Shown: positions 11,131 through 58,993 of the stretch, in pieces
Layout of the letters: every line of letters starts with the position of its first letter
How positions within the stretch are numbered: position 1 is the stretch's first letter
Origin: Actinomyces sp.
GTDB taxonomy: Bacteria > Actinomycetota > Actinomycetes > Actinomycetales > Actinomycetaceae
NCBI RefSeq assembly: GCF_030524025.1
Contig: NZ_JAUNHI010000004.1
Location: 1 to 64,000 of the forward strand
Direction: 5' to 3'
DNA: 64,000 nt
Made by a program: the position numbers and the translations under genes
The notes under the pieces: generated by a model
Told to the model about the DNA's origin: nothing
The model's database searches: none
Seen by the model: only the letters and a program-made list of their open reading frames with translations

Positions 11131-11175
11131 GGTGTCATATGTCCCGATCTCGAGGTGCCATATGTCCCGATCTCG
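11131..11175. repeat. 23-bp GAGATCGG tandem repeat, two units
   Basis: Two units in the CCGATCTC orientation start at 11144 and 11167 (period 23). Each carries CATATGTCCCGATCTCG. They occupy the gap between the divergent ABC-exporter and purB promoters. The same unit recurs at 49031, 58291 and 58939. Confidence 0.8.
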
Positions 11176-13431: not shown

Positions 13432-13695
13432 ATGGCCGACTTCACCGCCGACGGCGTCGACCGCACGACCACCCTGAGGATCTCCGGACTGACCTGCGGC
13501 CACTGCGTCGCACACGTCACCGAGGAGCTCGAGGCCATCGAGGGGGTCAAGAACGTCTCGGTCATCCTCAACAAGGGCGGCCAGTCCACCGCCACCGTCG
13601 TCTCGGACGTCGTCGTCGACGACGCCTCCCTGGCCGCGGCCATCGCCGAGGCCGGCGACTACACCCTCGATGCCGTGGAGCGGGACCGGCCCTGA
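13432..13695 (+). CDS. copZ: copper chaperone CopZ (HMA domain)
   Basis: The 87-residue protein is a single heavy-metal-associated domain with the Cu(I)-binding GLTCGHC motif near residue 20 and the typical beta-alpha-beta-beta-alpha-beta pattern. It would shuttle Cu(I) to CopA. GAGGAG sits about 8 nt before the ATG. It is 106 nt after csoR and 25 nt before copA, in the same direction and under the same CsoR control. Confidence 0.92.
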   Translation: MADFTADGVDRTTTLRISGLTCGHCVAHVTEELEAIEGVKNVSVILNKGGQSTATVVSDVVVDDASLAAAIAEAGDYTLDAVERDRP

Positions 13696-19118: not shown

Positions 19119-19221
19119 GCACGCGACGCACCGACCACCTGGCTTTTTCCAGCAGAGGTTCAGGGTTTTGTTAGGGTGGCCCGGCACGGATCATAGGTCA
19201 CGATCAGATGAGCGGAGTGCG

Positions 19222-20433
19222 ATGACAGCCGGCACTGTCCCTTCGGGCCCGGACGCTCGCAGGCGAGCCGGTTCTCGTGGCGTCCTCACCCGGCCCGACC
19301 GCCGCCCCTACGTCGCCGTCGGCATCCTGCTGGGGCTGGTCAACCTCGTCGTCAACGTCCTGTCCTTGGGCTCTGCGCCGGTCCTGGACCTGGGCTTCAT
19401 GCTCGCCGCCCTCGTCCTGGTCTCCATCATCCCCGTGCGCCCCCTGGTCGGCATCGGCGCCTACATGGCCTGCTGGCTGCTCCTCGTGTCCCTGCCGAAC
19501 ACCTACTCGACGGACATGCTGGTCACCAACCTGGCCTTCCTGTTCTTCCTCGGCCGCTTCCTGCCGCCCTGGCCCGCCACGGCCCTGTGCCTGGGGGCCA
19601 CCCTGGTCCAGGCCGTCACCGCCTCGCTGCATGTCGACCGCTCGACCACCGACTTCGGGACCCTGCTCTTCCAGCTCATCGCCGCGGCCGTCCTCCTGCC
19701 CGTCGGGGCCCTCCTGCGCTCCTCAGAGCACTCCCGGCGGGCCGAGGCCCAGCGCGCCGGGGTCCGCTACGACGACCTGCGCCATGAGATCGCCCGGGAG
19801 ATGCACGACCTCGTCGCCTACTCGATGTCCCAGACCGCGCTGCGCGCCCAGCGGGCCTCCATGGACATGAGCTACCCGCCCGAGGCCCGCCAGGAGTTCG
19901 CCGCCCTGGAGTCCACCGCCTCCGACGCCCTGCACGAGTTGCGCCTGCTCCTGCGCACCCTGCGCCAGGACGCCCCCACCCGGGACATCGCCGCGGCCAC
20001 CGGCCTGGGTGGCGTCGTGGCCGACCTGGGCACGGCCCTGCGGGCCATCAGCGACGACGTCGCCGGCTCGGGCTTCGACGTCACCTTCCGCAGCCTGGGC
20101 GAGGCCGTCCCCACCCGTTCCCAGGCCACCACCCTGTCCCGCGTGGCCCGCGAGATGGGCGCCAACATCATCCGCCATGCCGACCCGCGTGAGCCGGTGA
20201 CGATCACCCTCGTCCTGGGGCCCGAGTCGATCCGGATCGTGTCGACCAACCGGATCGACGACGAGGCCCACCTGCCCAGCTCGGGCACCGGGATGCTCGG
20301 CATGCGCGAGCGCCTGGCCGCCATCGACGGCACACTGACCACACTGGCCGACTCCGGGTGGTGGATCGTGACCGCATCGGTCCCGGTCATCGCCACCCGC
20401 CCAGAACCACCAGCCTTGGAGAAGAGCTCATGA
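19222..20433 (+). CDS. DesK/NarL-type sensor histidine kinase
   Basis: The 403-residue kinase has about five or six N-terminal membrane helices (residues 35-170) without a large extracytoplasmic loop. A HisKA_3-type dimerisation helix follows, with the phosphoacceptor His in EMHDLVAYSMSQ. The ATPase domain has an N box in EMGANIIRHAD and a G box in GTGMLGMRER. Its ATG at 19222 (GGAG upstream) was chosen over an earlier in-frame start. Its stop overlaps the regulator's ATG (ATGA at 20430), so the two genes form one two-component system. The signal is probably membrane-borne or a small molecule; it is not identifiable. Confidence 0.88.
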   Translation: MTAGTVPSGPDARRRAGSRGVLTRPDRRPYVAVGILLGLVNLVVNVLSLGSAPVLDLGFMLAALVLVSIIPVRPLVGIGAYMACWLLLVSLPNTYSTDMLVTNLAFLFFLGRFLPPWPATALCLGATLVQAVTASLHVDRSTTDFGTLLFQLIAAAVLLPVGALLRSSEHSRRAEAQRAGVRYDDLRHEIAREMHDLVAYSMSQTALRAQRASMDMSYPPEARQEFAALESTASDALHELRLLLRTLRQDAPTRDIAAATGLGGVVADLGTALRAISDDVAGSGFDVTFRSLGEAVPTRSQATTLSRVAREMGANIIRHADPREPVTITLVLGPESIRIVSTNRIDDEAHLPSSGTGMLGMRERLAAIDGTLTTLADSGWWIVTASVPVIATRPEPPALEKSS

Positions 20434-21095
20434 TCAATGTCGGGCTCGCTGATGACGACGCCCTCGTCCGCCGCACCCTGACCGACCTGCTGGCCACCAC
20501 CGAGGACGTGCGCGTGGCCTGGACCGCCTCGGACGGTCAGGAGGCCCTCGAGCTGCTGCGCGAAGGGGGCCAGACCCCCGTCCAGGTGCTCCTCCTCGAC
20601 GTCCAGATGCCACGCCTGGACGGCATCGCCCTGGCCGAGATCCTCCAGGAGGAGTTCCCCGAGATCGGGGTTCTCGTCCTGACGACCTTCGTGGCCGACG
20701 GCGTCCTCGACCGCGCCCTGGCCGCTGGGGTGCGCGGCTTCATCGCCAAGGAGGATTCGGTCTCGGCCCTGGCCAACACCATCCGCAACGTCGCCTCGGG
20801 CAACATGGTGCTCTCCCCCGCCTCCTCGGCGATCATCGGCCGGCGCTCGGTCCCGGGCGGGGCCGTCGCCCAGCCGGTCGTCCCCCCGGCGCCCGCCACC
20901 GGGAACACCCTGTCCCCCCGGGAGTCCGAGGTGCTCTTCCTCATGACCGAGGCCCTGTCGAACAAGCAGATCGCCGCGCGCCTGGGGGTCAGCGAGGCCA
21001 CCGTCAAGACCCACGTGTCCACCCTCATCGGCAAGCTCGGGGTCCAGGACAGGGTCGGCGCCGTCGTCTATGCCCTTCGCAATGGGCTTGTCTAG
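20430..21095 (+). CDS. LuxR/NarL-family response regulator
   Basis: The 221-residue regulator has a receiver domain with acidic pair DD (residues 8-10), phosphoacceptor Asp in LLLDVQMPRLDG and Lys in FIAKED. A linker leads to a LuxR-type HTH (TLSPRESEVLFLMTEALSNK ending at KTHVSTLIGKL). It is coupled to the upstream kinase. The 22-codon ORF and hairpin array immediately downstream lie in the same direction and are natural candidates for its regulon. Confidence 0.93.
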   Translation: MINVGLADDDALVRRTLTDLLATTEDVRVAWTASDGQEALELLREGGQTPVQVLLLDVQMPRLDGIALAEILQEEFPEIGVLVLTTFVADGVLDRALAAGVRGFIAKEDSVSALANTIRNVASGNMVLSPASSAIIGRRSVPGGAVAQPVVPPAPATGNTLSPRESEVLFLMTEALSNKQIAARLGVSEATVKTHVSTLIGKLGVQDRVGAVVYALRNGLV

Positions 21096-21108
21096 CCTCC
21101 CCCCATCG

Positions 21109-21152
21109 GTTGATCCGGATGGCCGATGCGCCCCCGCCCGGTCCGGGTCAAC
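21109..21152 (+). terminator. possible terminator hairpin after the two-component operon
   Basis: GTTGATCCGG (21109-21118) can pair with CCGGGTCAAC (21143-21152) with one G.U pair and a 24-nt loop. No T tract follows, so it may be a terminator or just a structured leader. Confidence 0.35.
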
Positions 21153-21201
21153 ATGTAGCCGTCATGGACCGTCCACTGTTCCGACTATAGAGAGGCCACT
21201 C

Positions 21202-21270
21202 ATGTACGAGAGCACGCCCGCTGGGGTCGCCGCCTGGAACCCCCTCTGGTTCTACTTCCGCCGTCGCTGA
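21202..21270 (+). CDS. 22-codon ORF, aromatic and Arg-rich C terminus
   Basis: The ORF encodes 22 residues starting MYESTPAGVAA and ending in WNPLWFYFRRR. Five aromatic residues fall in the last 11 positions, capped by three Arg codons and a TGA. AGAGAGG lies 5-9 nt before the ATG, and a -10-like TATAGA (21186-21191) lies just upstream. It sits about 100 nt after the LuxR regulator gene and 70 nt before the hairpin array. It might be a regulatory leader peptide (ribosome stalling on Trp/Pro/Arg), a secreted signal peptide, or a RiPP-like precursor. No family recognised. Confidence 0.5.
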   Translation: MYESTPAGVAAWNPLWFYFRRR

Positions 21271-21340
21271 GGCAAGGGCCCCGCGCCCGAGCCTGCGACA
21301 CCCTTCGAGAACTACTTCTCTGACAGTCAATCCCTGAGCC

Positions 21341-21547
21341 CGCCGGCCCCTGCCGGCGCCCTGAACGAGGCTGATCCCTGTCAGCCGCCCCGGTGGCGCC
21401 TCCCTGGACGTCACCTGCCACGGATGGTCCCTGCTATCCGTGGCCGCGGTGGCCCCTGCCGCCGCGCATCTCGGCCGACGCACAGGCCGCCTGCCTGGCA
21501 TGCCCTGACATGTCATGGACCATGGCCGGTCCCTGCCGGCCATGGTC
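21341..21547 (+). ncRNA. array of hairpins with a shared CCCTG loop
   Basis: Seven stem-loops lie in 207 nt. Loops are at 21347 (CCCCTG), 21375, 21401 and 21428 (TCCCTG), 21453 (CCCCTG), 21503 (CCCTGA) and 21530 (TCCCTG). Stems are respectively 6, 6, 8 of 9, 10, 8, 7 and 12 bp; the last pairs GACCATGGCCGG with CCGGCCATGGTC. Loop spacing is 25-28 nt, with one double step filled by another hairpin (21472-21489) with a different loop. A stemless TCCCTG occurs at 21331. Stem sequences differ while pairing is kept, including G.U pairs. The array could be an sRNA or the leader of the methyltransferase mRNA. I see no protein gene between 21271 and 21628. Confidence 0.75.
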
Positions 21548-21628
21548 ATCGCAGGTCATGGAGCCCGTCGAGGCCCCAGGGCGGCATTGGCGGCCGCCCC
21601 CGTCACCGGAAGGACTGGCGTCACCGTC

Positions 21629-22390
21629 ATGCACCCAGTGGAAGCTCCCGCAGACGCCGCCCCGAACGCCGTCCCCGCCCCTCTGCACACCGGTCAGGGG
21701 GCCCGGCGCTACGACAGCCTGTCGCTGCGCGACCGCTCCGAGGTGACGACGATCGTCGAGGTCCTGTCCCTCATCAACGCCCCTTCTCTGGCCGACAAGC
21801 GCGTCCTCGAGCTCGCCTGCGGCTGGGGGCGCCTGACACTGCCCATGGTCGCCGCAGGCCACCCGGTGCTGGCCACCGACCTCGACCCCGAGGCGCTGGC
21901 CGACCTCGCCGAGCACCTCGTTCCCCAGGGCACGGTGTCCGCCGGCATCGAGCTGCGGCTGACGAGCATGACGGCCTTCTCCTTCGATGAGACCTTCAAG
22001 GCGGTCTGCCTGCCCACCGGGGTGACGACCCTGCTGGACCACACGGCCCGCCGCAACGCCCTGGAGCGGGCGGTCGAGCACCTCGCCCCCGGGGGCATGC
22101 TCATCGTGTCGACCGACTACATCCTCGACTCGGCGCCCACGACGATGTGTCTGGCCCTGGGTCCGCACACCACCCTGACCGAGCAGGTCCTGCCGGAGTC
22201 CGACCTTCGCCGGATGACCCTCAGCTGGAAGGACGAGCTGTACAGCTCCGACCTCCACATCGTCCCGGCGACCTGGGTCTCGCGCACCTGCACCCAACTG
22301 GGCCTGACCGTCACCTACCAGCGCTCCAAGCCCGACCCGCTCCTGACCGGCCGGGTCAACGCCGTCATCGCCGCGGTCAAGAACCCCTGA
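21629..22390 (+). CDS. class I SAM-dependent methyltransferase
   Basis: This 253-residue Rossmann methyltransferase has the SAM motif LELACGWGRLTLPM (motif I), the acidic LATDLDPEAL (motif II) and HLAPGGMLIVSTDY (post-motif). An N-terminal YDSLSLRDRSEV segment precedes them. The target is unknown; small-molecule or peptide N-methyltransferases share this layout. GGAAGGA lies 15 nt before the ATG, rather far, and the long structured leader upstream suggests control at the RNA level. Its position after the two-component system and 22-codon ORF hints at a shared pathway. Confidence 0.8.
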   Translation: MHPVEAPADAAPNAVPAPLHTGQGARRYDSLSLRDRSEVTTIVEVLSLINAPSLADKRVLELACGWGRLTLPMVAAGHPVLATDLDPEALADLAEHLVPQGTVSAGIELRLTSMTAFSFDETFKAVCLPTGVTTLLDHTARRNALERAVEHLAPGGMLIVSTDYILDSAPTTMCLALGPHTTLTEQVLPESDLRRMTLSWKDELYSSDLHIVPATWVSRTCTQLGLTVTYQRSKPDPLLTGRVNAVIAAVKNP

Positions 22391-48175: not shown

Positions 48176-49051
48176 GTGACGAGCACTGATCCCGCGGAGT
48201 CCCGGCAGCCACTGGCCCGGCACCTGGCCGGTCGCCTCGAGGACGAGGACGCCCCCGTCCTCGTCCTGTCCCACGGCATCACCGACTCGGCCGCCTGCTG
48301 GGCCGACGCCGTGGGTCGCTGGACCGCCTCGGGCTACCGGATCGTCGCCCTCGACGCCCGCGGACACGGCGACTCGCCCCGGTGGGACGAGGGGGACCTG
48401 GTCAACCAGGAGACAGCGGGCGCCCGCCTCGCCGCCGACCTCACCGCTGCGCTGGTGGACCTGCGCGCCCACGGGCTCCGCGGCGAGGGCCCGCTGCGAG
48501 CGCCCCTCGTAGCGGTCGGGCACTCGATGGGTGGGGTGACGAGCCTCGACGTGGCTGCACACCGCCCCGACCTCGTCGACGGCGTCGTGGCGGAGGACCC
48601 GGCCTTCGTCACCCCCGCCTGGCGGCGGCTGCTGGCGCTGGACGCGGTCAGACAGGTGCGCGAGATGCGTGAGATCGCAGCCGACCCCGAGGCGCGCATC
48701 ACCCAGGAGCGGGCCGCGCACCCCACGTGGCCGCCCACCGAGGTCAGGGCGAGCGTTGAGGCCTCCTGCCGGGTCGACCTGCGCTTCCTCGCCCTGGGCT
48801 GCGTGAGCCCGCCCACGCCATGGCAGGAGGTCGTCGACTCCCTGGCCGTTCCCACGCTCATCGTCACCGGCACCGACCGAGTGGTGCTGCGGGGGGACAA
48901 CCTCACCAACCTCACCGCGCGGGCCAACCCGTGGATCTCCACCGCGGTGCTCGTCGGCGCGCCGCACTGCGTGCGCCGGACCTTCCCCGAGCGCTTCCAC
49001 GCCGTGACCGACCCCTGGCTCGCCCACCTCCCCCGAGATCGGGACTCATGA
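48176..49051 (+). CDS. alpha/beta hydrolase (paralogue)
   Basis: The 291-residue alpha/beta-hydrolase has LSHGITDS, ALDARGHGDSPRWD, elbow AVGHSMGGV, acid in LIVTGTDRV and His in GAPHCVRR, so the triad is complete. It is a paralogue of the hydrolase at 45572-46405; luxS and the Schlafen-like gene lie between the two copies. The GTG at 48176 was preferred to an upstream start because of the -10-like hexamer and the paralogue's length. The stop falls just inside the GAGATCGG repeat cluster. Confidence 0.85.
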   Translation: MTSTDPAESRQPLARHLAGRLEDEDAPVLVLSHGITDSAACWADAVGRWTASGYRIVALDARGHGDSPRWDEGDLVNQETAGARLAADLTAALVDLRAHGLRGEGPLRAPLVAVGHSMGGVTSLDVAAHRPDLVDGVVAEDPAFVTPAWRRLLALDAVRQVREMREIAADPEARITQERAAHPTWPPTEVRASVEASCRVDLRFLALGCVSPPTPWQEVVDSLAVPTLIVTGTDRVVLRGDNLTNLTARANPWISTAVLVGAPHCVRRTFPERFHAVTDPWLAHLPRDRDS

Positions 49052-49103
49052 CACCCCGAGATCGGTAGAAATGACACCCCGAGATCGGTACATATGACAC
49101 GCC
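49031..49103. repeat. 23-bp GAGATCGG tandem repeat, three units
   Basis: GAGATCGG occurs at 49035, 49058 and 49081, exactly 23 bp apart, each followed within the unit by ATGACAC. The first unit overlaps the end of the hydrolase gene. Confidence 0.85.
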
Positions 49104-49232
49104 GGTTCTGATCCTGGCACCCGAGGACACGGTCTCCCTCAACCGGTGAGCACCACGCGCCCACGGTCCGACCCGGTCCTGGGGAACCCCGGACACGAGG
49201 GCATGCGCGACCACGGACGATGCTCGAGCCAC

Positions 49233-58290: not shown

Positions 58291-58343
58291 CTCGCCGAGA
58301 TCGGGACATATGGCACCTCGAGATCGGTAGATATGACACGTCG
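58291..58343. repeat. 23-bp GAGATCGG tandem repeat, two units
   Basis: GAGATCGG starts at 58297 and 58320. The units read GAGATCGGGACATATGGCAC and GAGATCGGTAGATATGACAC. Confidence 0.85.
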
Positions 58344-58497
58344 GGGCGCAGGAGCTTCCCAGATGACTGATTCCAAAGGGGGTCGGCGGTTGTGTGCGGT
58401 CGGTGAGCGGCTGGTGGAGGCGCCGACGGGGCCGGCCGGTGAGACGGCGGTGGGCCTGGCGGCATGTCGCGCGGGACCTCGTCGTCGTTGGTGGGTG

Positions 58498-58620
58498 ACT
58501 CCGGGGCTCGGTCAGTGAGTCCGGGGCTGGGTGAGTCATTCCGGGGCTCGGTGGGTGAGTCCGGGGCCGACACCCCCGGAATCACCGCAGATCCCCGCTT
58601 TGACCGACCCAGCCCCGGAC
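58498..58620. repeat. CCGGGGCT palindromic repeat cluster
   Basis: Four GAGTCCGGGG/CATTCCGGGG units lie between 58498 and 58567. GTCCGGGGCTGGGT (58519-58532) is the exact inverse of 58607-58620. The segment 58573-58597 is identical over 25 bp to the hairpin arm at 33921-33945. Confidence 0.78.
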
Positions 58621-58907: not shown

Positions 58908-58938
58908 CCGAGCGCCTGGTGCGAACGGCTCGATGCAC

Positions 58939-58993
58939 CGAACTCGAGGTGCCATATGTCCCGATCTCGGGGTGTCATATGTCCCGATCTCGG
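58939..58993. repeat. 23-bp GAGATCGG tandem repeat, two units plus a degenerate third
   Basis: Inverted relative to the copy at 58291: CCGATCTC at 58961 and 58984 (period 23), with CCGAACTC at 58939. Confidence 0.82.

Follow-up and report, generated by a model that had tools for sequence, protein, structure and literature searches.

Why should a short non-coding interval of an Actinomyces genome hold one pentamer nine times, mostly in the loops of hairpins whose stems differ, and what might such an interval do? The locus lies in a 64,000-nt stretch of DNA (hereafter the window; its genome is designated G000, and the other G-numbers denote the genus genomes compared). An earlier note on this DNA had described seven hairpins with a common CCCTG loop, and an eighth with another loop in the single gap between them, and had ascribed the series to selection for structure together with a conserved loop.

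A CCCTG array between a tiny reading frame and a methyltransferase gene

Nine CCCTG copies were counted in non-coding DNA between a tiny ORF and a methyltransferase gene (Table 1). Seven of the nine occupy hairpin loops, each recovered where the earlier note had placed it, with stems of 6–12 pairs, and the other two, at 21332 and 21359, lie outside hairpins. The distances from loop to loop are 28, 26, 27, 25, 50 and 27 nt. The 50-nt gap contains the eighth hairpin, which is weaker and can be drawn either as CGGCC/GGCCG with loop GACGCACA or as CAGGC/GCCTG with loop CGCCT. The stems are broadly unrelated, as had been claimed, except that two pairs of units are partly alike (77% over 30 nt and 73% over 26 nt). 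The density of CCCTG is by itself not extreme (9 in 215 nt, with other 5-mers reaching 13). All six hairpins with a YCCCTG hexaloop and a stem score of at least 5 on the + strand of the 64 kb fall in the array, and the CCCTGA hairpin loop has one further occurrence in the window, at 13690.

Table 1 Features of the array locus (positions in the window).
Feature	Position	Strand	Basis
Sensor histidine kinase, two-component system	19168..20433	+	Pfam HisKA_3 E=5.6e-12; start possibly ATG 54 nt inward
LuxR-type response regulator	20430..21095	+	Pfam Response_reg and GerE
Dyad CATCGG..CCGATG, possible response-regulator operator	21104..21128	.	By eye
Tiny ORF MYESTPAGVAAWNPLWFYFRRR, 22 residues	21202..21270	+	Reading frame; counterpart in relatives
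CCCTG array, nine copies	21332..21547	+	Motif count; 45/45 motif bases same in G012
Hairpin, loop CCCCTG at 21347	21341..21358	+	Hairpin search
Hairpin, loop TCCCTG at 21375	21369..21386	+	Hairpin search
Hairpin, loop TCCCTG at 21401, one C-A mismatch (C-G pair in G012)	21392..21415	+	Hairpin search, G012 alignment
Hairpin, loop TCCCTG at 21428	21417..21444	+	Hairpin search, G012 alignment
Hairpin, loop CCCCTG at 21453	21445..21466	+	Hairpin search
Eighth hairpin(s), weaker, loop without CCCTG	21472..21497	+	Hairpin search
Hairpin, loop CCCTGA at 21503	21496..21515	+	Hairpin search
Hairpin, 12 pairs, loop TCCCTG at 21530	21518..21547	+	Hairpin search
Class I SAM methyltransferase	21629..22390	+	Nearest NCBIfam model daptide_MTase NF041820, below cut-off

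A flippase-like protein is encoded upstream, before the histidine kinase, and DUF2079 and two CrcB genes lie downstream of the methyltransferase. With 137.8 bits against daptide_MTase, the methyltransferase falls under the cut-off of 175, on which ground a daptide gene cluster was rejected. No aminotransferase or oxidoreductase model was found by Pfam on eight neighbouring proteins, and a contig search returned a single distant methyltransferase only.

Known repeat and terminator families were searched for and did not account for the motif. At gathering thresholds, Rfam matched only one tRNA across the window and no family at the array; weak matches near the arrays were to miRNA, lncRNA and other chance-like families, none of them credible. 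Tandem Repeats Finder reported no repeat at the array, and the literature searched held nothing resembling it. The interval 21050–21700 contains no sigma-70-like promoter and no U-tailed terminator; a series of intrinsic terminators was rejected, as a stem followed by a U tract occurs there zero times. The array was also not read as coding sequence, because the distances between motifs do not keep to multiples of three. Elsewhere in the window, 23-base tandem repeats of one family (CCGATCTCGGGGTGCCATATGTC and its complement) occur at 11131–11175, 49031–49104, 58296–58343 and 58938–58993, and a 20-base tandem repeat of 3.9 copies occurs at 58490–58567.

Both strands of 21195–21640 were folded and gave z=-5.3 for the + strand and z=-1.9 for the - strand. 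In a flank-swap test, in which the null pairs the left flank of one motif with the right flank of another, the window array scored 143 versus 65.7 (sd 14.1, p=0.0002). The functional strand is likely the + strand, judging from the predicted folding and the direction of the genes; wobble pairs (14 G.T vs 9 A.C, p=0.20) do not settle the strand by themselves. A covariance model of the unit, trained on the units of the window and of its relative G012 and hence biased to both, gave 16 matches genome-wide at E<=10, of which 6 lie in the array and 10 are scattered, with no other cluster. In the genus, clusters were seen only in G000 and G012 among the matches listed; a pair of matches 61 nt apart in G005 was dismissed as two near-identical hairpins without an array.

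Counterparts of the array in related genomes

Orthologs of the response regulator (E<=1e-45) are present in 31 of 49 genus genomes. From 35 regulator matches, 30 loci were retrieved, 8 were left out as the regulator end was not located, and 22 were evaluated. Six loci, those of the window and five further genomes, carry a CCCTG array in one orthologous place, between the tiny aromatic ORF and the methyltransferase, with 9–17 copies (9 each in G000 and G012, 11 in G009a, 14 in G013b, 17 each in G017 and G032) and with no CAGGG inside any array. The expectation that relatives would have the array beside the same methyltransferase was borne out, since this gene comes next at all six loci; matches to it (E<=0.001) occur in 26 of the 49 genomes. 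The 16 array-less loci have 0–2 CCCTG in 600 nt. At the DNA level, a search of the 49 genomes gave the array a full-length match in one other genome, G012 (87% identity, so that G000 and G012 are not independent), and eight further matches that are short (22–46 bases).

A tiny ORF with at least five aromatic residues and an SD-like sequence upstream stands at the same place in 21 of the 22 regulator loci, where shuffles expect 0.1, a comparison made with a filter chosen after the data were seen. It possibly represents a peptide signal or a leaderless peptide. Seen in the window at 21202–21270 and at loci L065–L083, L089, L090 and L094, this ORF diverges fast, with ends such as WNPLWFYFRRR, WNPWRFLRRW, AWWAFWL and WMPWHWFG. 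By eye, many of the 22 loci also have, behind the regulator gene, a CCGATCGG-type dyad like that of the window.

The arrays differ in architecture. In four dense arrays (G009a, G017, G032, G013b) the spacing is mostly 7–20 nt, without the 26-nt hairpins, and these four share a 3' end with one large hairpin before the methyltransferase, in which one pair is changed from C-G to T-A in G013b. Flank pairing in excess of the swap null was found in three of the six arrays (G000 p=0.0002, G012 p=0.0004, G032 p=0.0004) and was absent in the permutations for the other three (G009a p=0.32, G017 p=0.14, G013b p=0.11). The proposal of selection for structure plus a conserved loop therefore holds in part: the window hairpins are non-random, but four of the six arrays lack the hairpin spacing and three lack the pairing excess. 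Compensatory stem changes, also anticipated, were likewise found in part. Between G000 and G012, ten stem pairs are changed, of which one is compensatory, four are kept by one-sided changes, one is gained and four are broken (one by a gap).

The motif itself is kept. Of the 85 CCC runs within the arrays, 77 have TG next; of 71 motifs, 48 have T in front and 60 have A or G behind. The four non-hairpin arrays, with 11, 17, 17 and 14 exact copies, hold only 2, 2, 5 and 3 one-mismatch versions, and between G000 and G012 the motif bases are identical at 45 of 45 positions versus 166 of 189 for the others (p=0.0099). This pattern indicates that the CCCTG motif is under selection. Because the spacers change while CCCTG is kept, and because most arrays are without the hairpin spacing, we conclude that the motif is primary and that hairpins are one way of exposing it. 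For the same reason, the preservation of CCCTG amid changing letters, the array has the look of a regulatory RNA, so far unrecognised, in which one small motif is displayed repeatedly.

Predicted exposure fits the composition of the arrays. The unpaired probability of CCCT is 0.87 in G000 against a null of 0.55 (sd 0.07) and 0.84 in G012 against 0.56 (sd 0.08), and in neither case were any of 200 shuffles as high; in G009a, G017, G013b and G032 it equals the null within p=0.1. The GC content is 72–74% in the G000 and G012 arrays vs 57–63% in the others. According to these fold predictions, hairpins keep the motif open in the GC-rich arrays. A pattern of four G/C runs with loops of up to 7 is present in four of the six arrays; a G-quadruplex or i-motif was rejected, as the pattern is missing in G000 and G012 and the constant TG after CCC would be unaccounted for.

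At six array-less loci (L078, L079, L081, L082, L083, L094), the interval between the tiny ORF and the methyltransferase contains, by eye, a hairpin resembling a terminator and another dyad of the CCGATCGG type, which suggests two regulator-controlled units; the array therefore appears to take the place of that arrangement. G009 and G013 each have the system a second time, with only 163 and ~200 nt, respectively, between regulator and methyltransferase, and this second copy in G013 has the tiny ORF and no array.

CCCTG clusters also occur elsewhere. An unrelated intergenic locus in 4 of the 49 genus genomes (G006, G008, G016, G042; L129:3800-4280, L130, L131, L132) comprises a small ORF (MASWITWGIRQV/R..) with an SD-like sequence upstream, a CCCTG cluster and a strong hairpin, and has no Rfam match. 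Its eight CCCTG are invariant in all four genomes, and two hairpins have CCCTGAA loops; in G016, a hairpin changes from CGCGCC/GGCGCG to CGCGTC/GATGCG, that is, by one compensatory pair (C-G to T-A) and one G-U. Since the CCCTG pattern led to this locus, the search itself favoured a high motif count, which is not the case for the small ORF or the hairpins. Short clusters lie upstream of an aquaporin-like gene (G041, G010; L116, L117), with three CCCTG kept and spacer lengths differing, and of a cysE-like gene in G024 (L124), both gene names being assigned by eye. The pattern search matched 98 of 213 family genomes, with many of the matches listed coding-like and 12 places inspected by eye; a stricter pattern, blind to the window's own array, matched 3 of 396 genomes of the order. 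In another family, L127 (G404) has a clean 10-base CCCTG repeat, four times, before a transporter-like frame.

What the array might do

We favour, at just short of an even chance, an RNA-level platform in which many CCCUG copies are bound by one trans-acting protein or RNA. The transcript would start from a promoter that lies behind the regulator gene and is controlled by the response regulator, and it would comprise the tiny aromatic ORF, the array and the downstream methyltransferase. This RNA would present single-stranded (U)CCCUG(A/G) many times, the motif being kept unpaired by hairpins in the GC-rich arrays of G000 and G012 and by composition in the less GC-rich ones. As one exposed motif recurs in many copies, a multivalent partner is indicated, which might be a protein that binds RNA or else G-rich stretches of RNA; and with many partner sites per molecule, the RNA would titrate its partner or be controlled by it. 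CAGGG is not enriched before gene starts (4 of 62 vs 2.9 expected), and antisense pairing of the array with the nearby kinase start was rejected, as CAGGG is found near that start in only two of the six array genomes.

The main rival to the RNA platform is control of the methyltransferase in cis, which we consider rather unlikely: the array would form a leader or attenuator together with the large hairpin that follows it, and a CCCUG-bound factor would decide read-through into the methyltransferase. TRAP and CsrA act in this way in leaders. The methyltransferase follows next at all six array loci, the large hairpin comes directly after the array at four of them, with its one paired C-G to T-A change, and the six array-less relatives examined by eye have in its place a terminator plus another operator-like dyad, an arrangement that fits either reading. 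Against cis control, G000 is without a recognisable terminator, and the second locus has the array, apparently without this methyltransferase. Were the array instead a DNA-level element, a row of sites at which a DNA-binding protein (the neighbouring response regulator, for instance) docks, the single orientation of every copy and the frequent spacing of ~10 or 20 in the four dense arrays would be expected. However, spacings of 7, 8, 9 and 12 are also common and those of G000 and G012 range over 10–49, so that there is no fixed helical phase; the hairpins of G000, G012 and G032 would be left without explanation, and a different dyad occupies the expected operator place. We therefore judge this reading improbable.

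A neutral, decaying tandem repeat or functionless low-complexity drift is, in our estimate, slightly less probable still. The common 3' end and unit lengths of ~10 in the four dense arrays do recall an old tandem repeat, as does the clean four-copy repeat of the unrelated genome, but CCCTG is still exact where spacers are randomised, and copying does not yield the G000 and G012 hairpins with unrelated stems. Least credible by far is a CsrB-like sponge on the opposite strand with CAGGGA loops. This sequence fits the CsrA core CARGGA as given in part of PMC7652899, and the loops match it in four of the seven hairpins. The ANGGA core that the earlier note read in every loop is nevertheless available in only 48 of 71 motifs, those with a preceding T, the GGA being incomplete in the rest, and the - strand is the poorer folder. 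CsrA (PF02599) was found in none of the 12 genus genomes searched, whereas 3 of the 14 known genomes used as a control gave a match; on account of this absence, the note was right to doubt its own CsrA reading.

Returning to the RNA platform, we can envisage, though with considerable doubt, a genus-restricted RNA class of tiny ORF plus CCCUG array that recurs at unrelated loci and serves a CCCUG-binding regulator in the role of CsrA. If so, that regulator would do, in bacteria lacking CsrA, what CsrA with its sponges does in others; to our knowledge, few global RNA-based regulators are known in Actinobacteria. The CsrB layout of one motif in many loops would then have arisen with another motif, and the RNA would be linked to a two-component system whose tiny aromatic peptide is conserved yet changes rapidly. 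The partner could then be fished directly, given that the motif is defined, the copies in an array can be counted and nature supplies replicates both with hairpins and without them.

Comparison with known systems

TRAP-binding leaders also have many short motifs, but these are GAG/UAG triplets a few bases apart, whereas the G000 array is too widely spaced and is structured. The 6C RNA, presumably family RF01066, was rejected, as its covariance model gave no match in the Rfam search. C-rich motifs in loops or single strands are described as active in both RNAIII and 6C/B11 (parts of PMC3053349 and PMC10470900). The likeness to 6C/B11 lies in C-rich loops able to pair with G-rich sites; B11, however, is described with two cytosine loops (PMC10470900, in part), and the array has many CCCUG. 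ANTAR-target RNAs, which in Actinobacteria place hexanucleotide loops in tandem stem-loops, resemble the window array in exactly these respects, but their loops carry A1 and G4 in the description taken from PMC8164766, and both bases are missing from YCCCUG on the + strand, for which reason this class was rejected.

The closest layouts are those of CsrB and RNAIII. The claim that no RNA class has such a layout does not stand, with CsrB as a precedent: according to PMC7652899, this RNA displays CAGGA(U/A/C)G ~18 times, either in the loops of hairpins or in further stretches that are single-stranded. Like CsrB and RsmZ, the array repeats one short motif in loops or single strands while the stems differ (PMC7652899, in part). 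It departs from them in its motif, CCCUG rather than GGA (the + strand loops read YCCCUG, and a GGA in each loop is not attained on the - strand either), in adjoining a tiny ORF and preceding a methyltransferase, and in the lack of a CsrA gene in the genus genomes searched. With Staphylococcus aureus RNAIII it shares a two-component locus and C-rich motifs in hairpin loops, and the tiny ORF that precedes the array in the genome sequence may correspond to the peptide ORF within RNAIII (PMC3053349, in part). The arrays differ from RNAIII in carrying 9–17 motif copies and in the lack of homology or an Rfam match. The CAGGG counts before gene starts and at the kinase start gave no support for target pairing. 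The agr kinase and regulator belong to other families than those at the window locus. Our best reading is that the array is laid out like CsrB or RNAIII and is a member of neither.
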